A stretch of 64,000 nucleotides of DNA from Tardiphaga sp. 709 (GTDB taxonomy: Bacteria; Pseudomonadota; Alphaproteobacteria; Rhizobiales; Xanthobacteraceae), in NCBI RefSeq assembly GCF_032401055.1, contig NZ_CP135529.1, positions 4,338,501-4,402,500 on the forward strand. Reading direction: 5' to 3'. The position numbers and the translations under genes were made by a program. The stretch's first letter is position 1, and the number at the start of each line of letters is the position of its first letter. Below the pieces are notes generated by a model that saw only the letters and a program-made list of their open reading frames with translations, did not search any database and was not told where the DNA came from. Shown here piece by piece: positions 10,075 to 57,985 of this stretch.

Positions 10075-10152
10075 GCGCCCGTAGCTCAGCTGGATAGAGC
10101 ACGTGACTACAGAATCACGGGGTCAGAGGTTCGAATCCTTTCGGGCGCGCCA
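10075..10152 (+). tRNA. tRNA-Arg (probable ACG) with an 8-nt anticodon loop
   Basis: Full cloverleaf: acceptor GCGCCCG pairs with CGGGCGC, followed by discriminator G and an encoded CCA. The D arm is GCTC/GAGC, the anticodon stem CGTGA/TCACG is a perfect 5 bp, the variable loop is 5 nt, and the T arm contains TTCGAAT. The anticodon loop reads CTACAGAA, eight bases instead of seven. Removing the A at 10111 gives CTACGAA with anticodon ACG, and the acceptor stem, D loop and discriminator suit an arginine tRNA. So this is an Arg-ACG tRNA with one inserted base, either an error or a real defect. Confidence 0.85.
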
Positions 10153-55325: not shown

Positions 55326-55489
55326 ACGCAAACACCACGCCACCCGATACCGCGAGCCTAGCCTCCGCGGTTTAAGGGGCGGTTACGCAGAAGTTAACGT
55401 AAGGGAAACAAGGTTCCATGGTTGGGGGCACTGATGCCGTGATGCGCACTGTTGCCGTGCGGAATGCTGCACACGGTGGCTTCCGCAAA
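55326..55489. other. Region upstream of mrcA
   Basis: Between the mrcA start and the inverted-repeat element. It presumably holds the mrcA promoter, read leftward. No gene or motif was recognised. Confidence 0.4.
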
Positions 55490-55667
55490 CTCTGCTGTCA
55501 TCCCCGCCTAGCGTGCCAAAGGCGCGCGCGGGGCGGGGACCCATAACCTCCGAGTTTGTGGTGCGCGATGAAGGCTGCGACGTTCTCGCCCTGACTATCT
55601 CTGCACGTGTCTATGGATCCCCGCCCCGCGTGCGCCTTCGGCGCACTAGGCGGGGATGACAGCTGAG
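55490..55667. repeat. 178-bp inverted-repeat element (MITE/REP-like)
   Basis: Two arms of about 50-55 bases, 55490-55545 and 55612-55667, are reverse complements with a handful of mismatches. The core reads TGTCATCCCCGCCTAG on the left and CTAGGCGGGGATGACA-type on the right. A 66-base, less symmetric centre lies between. It is non-coding. The design matches the non-autonomous palindromic elements common between genes in Bradyrhizobium relatives. No transposase or target duplication is seen. Confidence 0.8.
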
Positions 55668-55739
55668 TATTGTGTGGCCGCACTACGCAACACACGCGCT
55701 GTGCTTCGCACTCTCGCTCACCGCTTCACTTGTCAAACA

Positions 55740-56216
55740 GCCACGCCATTCCCTGGAAAAATCTCACCGCCCACGCGCCGTCCGTATCGCGCCTCAGCGC
55801 AAAGCGGGTGGACCGGTTTTCCCCCTCGTGAATGAGGGGGATGACGCGCCGAAAGGCGCAACTTGGTCGTTCTCGCGTTTCGCTCCGGCCTTGCGAAGGC
55901 CCTTGCGATCCGCGCATCGCCTTTCGGCGCGCCATCGCGGTTTTTCTGTTCGAGGGACCGCGCTTCCGGGTACTGGGCAGGACTAATAAGTCCTCTGTTC
56001 CGGACAGGCTTTCGCCTGCCTTCACCCGCACCGCGTCCAGCCGTTTCCGGCAGAGCCCCGTAGTGGGCCCGGACGGTGACCCCCGACCTCCCGAGTCCGT
56101 GCTTGCGAGGCACGTCCGCAGGCGCCGCATCCAAACTCCACTTCGAAAGCGCCCTCGAGAAGCGCCCCTCGTGAGTAGGACGGAAAGGAATATAGTCAGA
56201 ATAAACTAATTGTCAA
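55740..56216 (-). ncRNA. Hairpin-rich RNA candidate downstream of a strong promoter (unclassified)
   Basis: A consensus-like promoter (below) fires leftward from about 56180. Behind it, in a stretch with only shadow ORFs, are perfect hairpins: CAGGC-GAAA-GCCTG (56005-56018, GNRA loop), GGACT-TATT-AGTCC (55980-55993), GGCCTT-CGC-AAGGCC (55887-55901), GCGCC-TTTC-GGCGC (55846-55859) and CCCCCTC-N6-GAGGGGG (55821-55840), all as read on the minus strand. Group II intron, RNase P, tmRNA and SRP signatures are absent. It could be an RNA gene, an element remnant or a cluster of terminators. The ends are approximate. Confidence 0.4.
56189..56216 (-). promoter_or_regulatory. Near-consensus sigma-70 promoter, reading leftward
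   Basis: On the minus strand TTGACA (56211-56216) is followed by 16 bases and TATATT (56189-56194). A 6/6 -35 with a 5/6 -10 is uncommon in this GC-rich genome and implies strong, unregulated transcription of the region to the left. The same AT-rich block precedes the GIY-YIG gene on the other strand. Confidence 0.6.
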
Positions 56217-56276
56217 CCCCAGCGTGTATGTGCTCGGCTATGGAGCAAGCTTGGTGATGAGGAAATTGAGCACACA

Positions 56277-57282
56277 ATGGGAAATCTAGCCGGACGAACG
56301 ATAAAGCTCTTCTTGGTTGACGGCGTCCCCGACGGGATTCGGACTGCGGAAATCATGAGTTGGACCGGTCATGTATTATTCGCACCACGGTCCAGTATCG
56401 CGACCCTTCTAGCTCGCCCTGAAGCAAAGAGAACAGGTGCATATCTCCTAATAGGGCCTGATCCGAAAGATACAGATCATGGTGTACGTCGGCGAGGGAG
56501 ATAACGTCGGAATTCGTATCTCTAGCCATAACAAGGATGACGATAAGGATTTCTGGGAACATGCATGCGTCATCACTAGCAAAGATCTCAATTTGACCAA
56601 GGCTCACGCGCGTTATCTTGAAAGCGAAATCATTCGAATCGTAAAACATGAAGGGCGCGCCACACTCGCGAACAAGAGCGAACCCGAGTTTGACCGTCTG
56701 CCAGAATCTGACCTCGCCGATATGGACGATTTTGTAGCTCGCCTCCAAGTTTTGCTACCCGTACTTGGAGCAGAATTTCTTCGCCCAACGCCCGACGTCT
56801 CGAAGCGAGTGGAATTTCAGTTCCTTCAGTGGCTGTCGGAGAAAAGGAGAAGGGCTCCAATCCTTCTGGAGATGGTGTTTCAGAATCTCTCAAACGAATC
56901 GCGGCCAGAGTTTCGAATGAATGCAGGCGGCCTTCAGGCAGAGGCAGTCGAAATCGATGGGCAAATGATTATTCTGTCGGGATCTCAAGCGCGCGCCCAA
57001 GAAGCGCCGTCGCTCGCTTCGAATGTTCGTGCGTATAGGGATCAATTGCTAAAAACGGGAAAATTAGTAAAGGACGAAAAAACTGGTGTTCTACATTTCG
57101 CTGAGGATGTTGCCTTCACTTCCCCCAGCGCAGCAGCGCAAGCTGTTATGGGAACAAGTAGGAACGGCAGAACCGATTGGATTAACGTTTCGACGAACGA
57201 GACCTATGCGAATTGGCAAGAACGTATGATCTCGAAATTTTATTCGACCGTGAATCTGTTTGACGATGGCGAGGCAACGTAA
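56277..57282 (+). pseudogene. GIY-YIG nuclease with DUF4357 domain, frameshifted in the catalytic motif
   Basis: The N-terminal part (MGNLAGRTIKLFLVDGVPDG ... KRTGAYLLIGPD) holds the first half of the GIY-YIG fold (here G-A-Y). The second part (MVYVGEGDNVGIRISSH) holds the Y-V-G and the R/H residues; it is one base out of frame, an extra C at 56478. The C-terminus has the DUF4357 stretch ASNVRAYRDQLLKTGKLVKD, ending WINVSTNETYANW. Base composition is more AT-rich than the neighbours, suggesting acquisition. Relatives are probably mobile or defence-linked nucleases; the split is a lesion or sequencing error. Confidence 0.82.
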
Positions 57283-57470
57283 TTTAGATACATCCAATCT
57301 GGAATGACTTATATTTGGTGACACCAATCACATTGTCAGAAGCGTCTATAGAAGGCGGGCTGCTTCTTCTCCCTCCCTCAAGCGGCGAAGCCGCGCAGTG
57401 GGGAGGGTGGCGCGGTGCGAGCACTTGCGAGCAACGTGACGGGTGGGGTGGTGCAGCAAGTGAGGACAGC
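57283..57470. repeat. GC-rich palindromic stretch before the DUF559 gene
   Basis: Contains CTCCCTCAAGCGGCGAAG and CGCAGTGGGGAGGGTGGC (57370-57413), related to the reverse complement of sequence after the gene (57831-57860: GGCCACCCTCCCCACGC). Similar CCTCCCC/GGGGAGG blocks bracket the DUF559 gene. They resemble dispersed intergenic repeats and suggest the gene was moved or copied as a unit. Confidence 0.5.
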
Positions 57471-57821
57471 GTGGCAAACGCATTCGCGCGGTCGCTTCGC
57501 AAGAGCCTGACGCCGCAGGAGGCGAAGCTGTGGGTGAAGCTACGTGAACTCAAGCCGCTCGGCTTTCACTTTCGCCGGCAGGCGCCGATCCGGCACATCA
57601 TCGTGGACTTCGTCTCGTTTCGCGATCTGCTGGTGATCGAGGTCGATGGCGGGCAGCATAATTTTGATGAAGCTACGCGCAAGGATGAAGCGCGGGATAC
57701 GTTTCTGCGCGGCGAGGGATTTCGCGTATTGCGGTTCTGGAATTTCGAGGTGGATCGGAATCTAGATGGTGTGATGGAGACGGTGGTGACCGCATTGGGC
57801 ACCCCCACCCGACCGGCCTGA
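57471..57821 (+). CDS. DUF559 (Vsr-like) endonuclease-family protein
   Basis: The product of about 116 residues begins ANAFARSLRKSLTPQEAKLW after GTG 57471. The PD-(D/E)xK-type core is visible in IIVDFVSF and LVIEVDGGQHNFDE (D, then E-x-D), and FLRGEGFRVLRFWNFEVDRN is the C-terminal family signature. Its substrate is unknown; relatives are linked to mobile or mismatch-repair contexts. An upstream in-frame ATG (57315) lies in repeat sequence and looks spurious; the GTG follows GAGGACA. The genes on both sides also belong to the accessory segment. Confidence 0.85.
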   Translation: MANAFARSLRKSLTPQEAKLWVKLRELKPLGFHFRRQAPIRHIIVDFVSFRDLLVIEVDGGQHNFDEATRKDEARDTFLRGEGFRVLRFWNFEVDRNLDGVMETVVTALGTPTRPA

Positions 57822-57985
57822 CGGCCGGCCACCCTCCCCACGCAAGGGCGGGGGAGGGAAAGCAATCGCTGCATACGCCCCACATCATCGCCGCATTGAT
57901 CACACCAAACCACCACACCCACTCCAGACCTTCCGCACACTTCACCGCTAATGCTGCGCTCCTTCCCAACCGGAAAGGACCAACC

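Follow-up and report, generated by a model that had tools for sequence, protein, structure and literature searches.

What is the gene-free, hairpin-rich stretch that follows a strong promoter in the genome of Tardiphaga sp. 709? The question arises in a stretch of 64,000 nucleotides (contig NZ_CP135529.1, positions 4,338,501 to 4,402,500), here called the window, in which positions are counted from its first letter. A first-pass annotation, made from the letters alone, had delimited a segment at 55740..56216 and suggested a new small RNA, a fragment of a mobile element or an anti-phage RNA component. Judged by comparison of its copies, the segment belongs to type I of a family of chromosomal RNA loci that has two types. 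We lean, with some reserve, towards a selected, structured and probably trans-acting RNA that recombines between its copies.

The promoter named in the first-pass annotation is present on the minus strand (56216-56189), its TTGACA and TATATT boxes being separated by 16 bases, and about 450 bases of dense hairpins lie downstream. The full element is about 485 bp long and the RNA itself about 440 nt (Table 1). The promoter end of the segment as first delimited was correct; at the other end the conserved tail reaches about 55731, nine bases further. The alignment used throughout contains 56 of the 69 distinct copies longer than 350 nt, near-duplicates, poor matches and partial copies being left out by choice. 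Among the 44 aligned copies that keep the -35 sequence, 41 also have a -10 box with at least four of the six consensus bases at a spacing of 15-18, and in eight other copies, all from other genera, an ATCCCCG-type box replaces the -35. At the 5' ends of loci L039-L042, L044-L046, L051 and L181-L195, ATCCCCG at the -35 position is followed about 17 bases on by a TAnnnT -10, a different conserved promoter type. From the position of the boxes we infer that transcription of the window copy starts near 56182.

Is the product a structured RNA? The window strand has a folding energy of -226.2 kcal/mol, where 100 shuffles give -199.5 +/- 6.8 (z -3.9), and the RNAalifold consensus of the 56 copies has 77 pairs. 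When this structure is held fixed and scored, 97.0% of the cells are paired and 44 of the 77 pairs have changes on both sides, so that the covariation check proposed in the first-pass annotation is passed; none of 500 shuffles equals the real alignment on any of five measures, and sliding the partners by 1-3 columns lowers the pairing to 38-48%. In helix 12 alone, 98.2% of the cells are paired and nine of the 17 pairs are changed on both sides. Since the fold lies below the shuffles and is conserved with covariation, the hairpins noticed at first sight exceed chance. The pairing also persists between genera: at two sites that they have in common (genome G121 against G016, and G121 against both G000 and G004), RNA identity is 67-73%, yet each comparison retains 71-75 of 76-77 pairs and shows 6-9 double changes. 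Conserved pairs with compensatory changes, as expected of a structured non-coding RNA, are thus found.

Helix 12 (55842-55934) has in its 5' arm a GNRA-like centre (GAAA, GCAA, GUGA or GUAA, depending on the copy), whose complement lies in the 3' arm. Two local hairpins or one long helix could form there, which makes it a candidate switch.

Could the segment instead be a gene, or part of one? Long open frames exist on both strands, yet only six of the 104 insertions and deletions between copies within site groups are multiples of three, which rules out a coding gene and upholds the earlier statement that no reading frame is supported. A 5' leader of the next gene is ruled out as well, the neighbouring gene pointing either way over 16 loci.

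A repeat acting at the level of DNA, similar to repetitive extragenic palindromic (REP) sequences or miniature inverted-repeat transposable elements and devoid of RNA function, would agree with the REP-like palindromes that adjoin several copies. We find it scarcely credible: the promoter is kept, the fold is large and has several domains, and G-U pairs are kept on the promoter's strand only (for instance, U-G in 46 of 56 copies at columns 111-151). REPs and bacterial interspersed mosaic elements are built of a short palindromic unit without a promoter of its own, and the present element, with its length, promoter and multi-domain fold, does not belong among them. The palindrome flanking the window copy is real, as claimed at first, with arms of 57 nt each (55489-55545 and 55612-55668; 89% complementary) around a 66-nt spacer; it is a repeat separate from the RNA. 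This palindrome (55489-55668) adjoins the 3' end of the RNA and differs between strains at the same site.

Is the RNA already known? At the gathering score, Rfam 15 returned for the window only the tRNA at 10075, and nothing for five loci; E-value mode gave nothing credible for type I (three copies) or type II (one copy). The earlier impression that no known large RNA is matched is thereby confirmed. The sole low E-values came from an animal microRNA model and belong to the neighbouring palindrome, which appears on both strands with 64-66 bits where the gathering score is 168. No description of the RNA was found in the available portions of the open-access literature (PMC5082802, PMC4842269, PMC3091675, PMC11109978, PMC3733652), which could be searched by text and not by sequence. 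We class it as a new family among the large structured RNAs, unusual in its interchangeable bodies and apparently unnamed. Of the three initial suggestions, a new small RNA is the one consistent with the conserved promoter, the fold with compensatory changes and the lack of an Rfam family.

How far does the family extend? The window's genome has ten type I copies, besides one truncated remnant, and at least five copies of type II, in which a different body stands between the same ends. With the covariance model, all 18 genomes of the genus (18/18) carry type I, with 1 to 20 copies each among the matches listed. BLAST matches to type I occur in at least 65 of 149 genomes of the family and at least 28 of 47 genera, and matches to type II in at least 49 of the 149, many in the 5' or 3' module only; these family-wide counts are lower bounds, four first-look candidates having been scored per genome. 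An order-wide sample, scanned with the covariance model under stricter filters, gave at least four of 199 genomes with type I: the window's own, one of another family with eight copies, and two with one weaker match each. The core pattern is also present in Rhodopseudomonas, Pseudolabrys, metagenome bins labelled Rhizobium, Devosia and others. Type I is chromosomal, and nearly all copies are full length where the contig allows. Matches to type II reach 8-Mb genomes of another genus (g25).

What varies between copies? With gaps counted as mismatches, the inner segment (window 55968-56038) is only 32-57% identical in seven pairs of copies with scaffolds 89-92% identical, six of the seven being same-site pairs. 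Nine pairs have the reverse pattern, for example sites A and B, where the segment is 97% and the scaffold 80% identical in G000, and 100% and 78% in G008. Because the identities of segment and scaffold disagree in both directions, the segment moves between copies; gene conversion would explain this most simply.

Whole bodies are exchanged too. Site K has type I in the window's genome, and in G017 and G008 a type II body with the same promoter and 5' hairpin and the same tail, GTGGCTGTTTGACA; in G003 both ends of the type II RNA are found there on separate contigs. The site at C1:733086 of G004 has type I in G004 and type II in G000, and a third swapped site has type I in G003 (L078) and type II in G000 (L281). 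Grouping by flanks gives orthology on both sides at all three. By our own count, three of the 15 site groups with type I from at least two genomes are mixed. One type I copy in G004 (L209 and L234, contig C34 near 453228) joins the 3' flank of one swap site to the 5' flank of another; the junction at L209 comes from a rearrangement through the RNA, or else from an assembly join.

The type II RNA is about 530 nt long, with an unrelated body of about 450 nt. Its layout parallels that of type I: a 5' hairpin, a domain closed by GCGG/CCGC, a long inverted-repeat arm and the tail. At least four copies occur in each of five close genomes, with a fifth in G000; thirteen are 81-94% identical to the copy of G017. 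A consensus of eight sequences has 152 pairs, 19 of them with double changes, the sequences being too alike for a strong test. Type II has no Rfam match, and when the retrieved DNA was searched with two simple patterns, no other type of RNA carrying the shared head came to light. Taken together, a constant head and tail would hold one of at least two large folded bodies, swapped between strains at places that collect defence genes; we put forward only tentatively that this is a bacterial counterpart of short interspersed nuclear elements (SINEs) or a cassette-like repertoire of trans-acting RNAs.

The same layout invites a purely selfish interpretation, in which a non-autonomous SINE-like element, composed of a promoter head, a replaceable body and a shared tail, spreads with the aid of an enzyme and folds to serve its own spread. 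The dispersed and variable number of copies, the head-body-tail arrangement with swapped bodies and exchanged parts, the similarity of the type II copies and the free orientation relative to the gene on the 3' side all agree with it. We nevertheless consider it rather unlikely, given that sites are common to different genera with the pairing kept. No target-site duplication was convincing by eye, the sites compared being swaps, deletions or too diverged, with no clean empty site among them, and no linked transposase or recombinase was noticed in the flanks read, no systematic search having been made. At blastn sensitivity no match was found in 72,556 plasmid records and 50,697 phage records, and viral contigs contained no match to one exact 28-mer. 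With these results and the shared sites, the initial suggestion of a mobile-element fragment is not borne out.

Why, then, does the promoter adjoin genes that differ between strains? Synteny between close strains runs through the RNA up to the promoter and stops there. A non-homologous gap of at least 400 bp begins within 25 bp of the -35 box in 26 of 39 orthologous pairs, which come from ten sites and hence are not independent. By site, such gaps occur in 10/10 pairs at A, 10/10 at B, 5/6 at C and 1/1 at I, and in none at D, E, F, G, H and J; at E and F the gap begins 530-840 bp further on. Six gaps touch the 3' side of the RNA, and 22 others are spread over 435 kb aligned. The promoter-side DNA is thus replaced between close strains at four of the ten sites. 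Since the return of synteny at B, C and D coincides with the stop codon of the next gene, the replaced part is what lies between that gene and the promoter. Entry of this cargo by recombination inside the RNA between sites is unsupported at site A: there the RNA beside the cargo retains the sequence of its own site.

Pfam and PADLOC place defence or restriction families at seven of the 17 loci of sites A-C: PDC-S14 (in the window), KAP/PifA, an OLD-like ATPase, a reverse transcriptase with RNase H, FRG/PDC-S15, DUF5131/PDC-M41B and a DpnI-type enzyme (Pfam only). The other cargo there consists of other or unclassified genes, and the RelA/SpoT and DUF3800 cargo proteins had no PADLOC match. The scan covered 19 different proteins and two more, leaving out L053, L054/L077, L064, L068 and the DUF559 copies of L085 and L090; the labels uvrB, gltD, penicillin-binding protein, histidine kinase, metal-efflux pair and three-Cys-motif protein were read from the sequences of the open reading frames alone. 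At another site (L071:7517 onward, G002), Hachiman HamA and HamB directly adjoin an RNA copy.

It is tempting to see in the RNA a working part of the neighbouring defence systems (a sensor, guide, antitoxin or regulator of the cargo), the more so as the cargo starts at its promoter and such families, Hachiman among them, recur beside it. We regard this as quite improbable. The neighbouring families are unrelated to each other and differ at the same site, so that no constant partnership with one family is found; sites D, G, H and J hold copies without cargo in the strains compared. The FRG, OLD-TOPRIM, KAP and PDC-S14 families number about 20 genes in the 18 genomes; the four beside the RNA are those that prompted the test, and none of the other 16 is near an RNA copy among the matches listed. 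Because these 16 lie elsewhere, the RNA edge marks a hot spot and does not prove a defence RNA. Outside the genus, ordinary genes adjoin the RNA at most of 20 loci read by eye, and one has a reverse transcriptase. With neighbours that change while the RNA stays, the proposed anti-phage role finds no support. A retron or group II intron would have a linked reverse transcriptase; one is present at one of the 17 loci of sites A-C (L086) and beside the L200 copy of another family, and not beside the other loci read.

Could the variable loops be programmable, the RNA guiding a trans-acting recombinase or nuclease as bridge RNAs do? Hypervariable segments set in a conserved scaffold, beside a place of DNA replacement, would suit this idea. 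We think it highly improbable, as one loop segment is common to sites A and B, whose cargos are different, and no recombinase was noticed at the sites (no systematic flank search).

In the window itself (Table 1), the DUF559 gene and the gene resembling GIY-YIG nucleases are cargo of this site. The broken gene claimed at first is real and nuclease-like, one PADLOC profile (PDC-S14) being matched first at 56265-56474 and then, in another frame, at 56476-57234. The DUF559 gene recurs at site C of G008 and site A of G004, and the GIY-YIG-like gene is beside no other listed copy. In different strains DUF559 (window 57315-57821; L085; L090) is the cargo of two distinct RNA sites, and it may move as a small cassette. 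Elsewhere in the window, the sole tRNA called (10075-10152, plus strand) has a good Rfam score, its type being unassigned by ARAGORN (a four-base anticodon call).

Table 1. Positions of the type I element, its parts and the adjoining cargo in the window, with the type II copies located elsewhere
Feature	Position	Strand	Basis or remark
Type I RNA element: promoter, structured RNA and 3' tail	55731..56216	-	copies homologous from -35 box to tail; 10 copies in genome
-35 box TTGACA	56211..56216	-	sequence; TTGA[C/T] in 44/56 copies
-10 box TATATT	56189..56194	-	sequence; paired with -35 in 41/56 copies
5' hairpin domain (helices 1-3)	56129..56181	-	90-99% of cells paired; architecture common to type II
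Central domain (helices 4-11), GCGG/CCGC closure, conserved ACUACG loop	55937..56128	-	alignment and fixed-structure scoring
Hypervariable segment, moves between copies	55968..56038	-	copy comparison
Helix 12: 17-pair inverted-repeat arm, encloses second variable stretch 55859-55918	55842..55934	-	
3' tail CGTGGCTGTTTGACA, common to type II copies	55731..55745	-	sequence comparison
Strain-specific cargo, from RNA promoter to resumed synteny	56217..57887	.	comparison with G017, G003, G008
Cargo gene, PDC-S14-like, DUF4357 domain, two frames (apparent frameshift)	56265..57234	+	Pfam, PADLOC
Cargo gene DUF559	57315..57821	+	Pfam 2.3e-32
Type II copies	L231:889-1450 (+); G000 C1:5192483, 5079601, 5047347, 2565221, ~3347600		

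We believe that these observations are best brought together as follows. The locus would be transcribed from its sigma70-like promoter, and the RNA would act in trans as a folded molecule, most likely with a protein partner that reads the shared 5' domain and the tail; the variable loops or bodies may set its target or partner. Copies would exchange by gene conversion or homologous recombination while the promoter, 5' hairpin and 3' tail stay. The stretch from the promoter to the next gene may be a permissive place where accessory genes, often of defence, come and go, the RNA being a stable landmark of the hot spot and not necessarily its cause.

Several observations weigh against a selected trans-acting RNA. 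Copies are individually dispensable: the window's genome has lost the 5' part of the RNA at its site J, and the number of type I copies varies within the genus over the range given above. The covariation scores are inflated by the relatedness of the copies and by deriving the structure from the same alignment, the margin being large all the same, and the likeness of the pairs could be maintained by conversion between copies, with no need for selection at each site. Against the absence of a supported reading frame stands the longest open stretch, with a median of 138.5 amino acids over the 56 copies against 108.5 in single-base shuffles, an excess that we ascribe to composition. Finally, no partner protein was found, the flanks having had no systematic protein search.

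The interest of the locus is threefold. At some ten copies per genome, with certain sites common to different genera, this folded RNA of about 440 nt represents a large non-coding gene family missing from Rfam 15; if functional, it adds a major RNA family, and if selfish, a bacterial element with a SINE-like layout. Where type I and type II replace each other at orthologous sites, nature offers an experiment on the role of the common ends. The stable RNA edge also points to where new defence genes may be sought in Tardiphaga and its relatives.

How does the family compare with known systems? OLE, GOLLD, ROOL and HEARO are likewise non-coding, several hundred nucleotides long and of complex conserved fold; type I differs in having no Rfam match, ten or more copies per genome and alternative bodies at one site. 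With eukaryotic SINEs it has in common the promoter head, replaceable body, shared tail and dispersed copies, and it differs in that no partner enzyme or target-site duplications were seen and that its sites are common to different genera.

Closer in taxonomy, Br-REP1, Br-REP2 and the CGTC/GTAG REPs are described in the available text as dispersed intergenic short palindromes of Bradyrhizobium and Rhodopseudomonas (PMC5082802, PMC3733652). They resemble type I in being dispersed and intergenic in the same bacterial group, and palindromes stand beside some of its copies, whereas type I has a fold of 440 nt and its promoter. Around Br-REP2 a larger element is mentioned without data (PMC5082802), and that text, as far as available, does not allow a comparison. 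The same source, in the part available, lists BjsR1-BjsR10 of B. japonicum, intergenic RNAs with RpoD-type promoters, some in 2 to 4 imperfect copies (PMC5082802); compared by these descriptions only, they share with type I the intergenic position and a sigma70-type promoter and have lower copy numbers. Bacterial chromosomal defence hot spots, finally, have conserved flanks and changing defence genes as here; the difference is that the edge of the present hot spot is itself an RNA gene in many copies, and that a genome has several sites of this kind.
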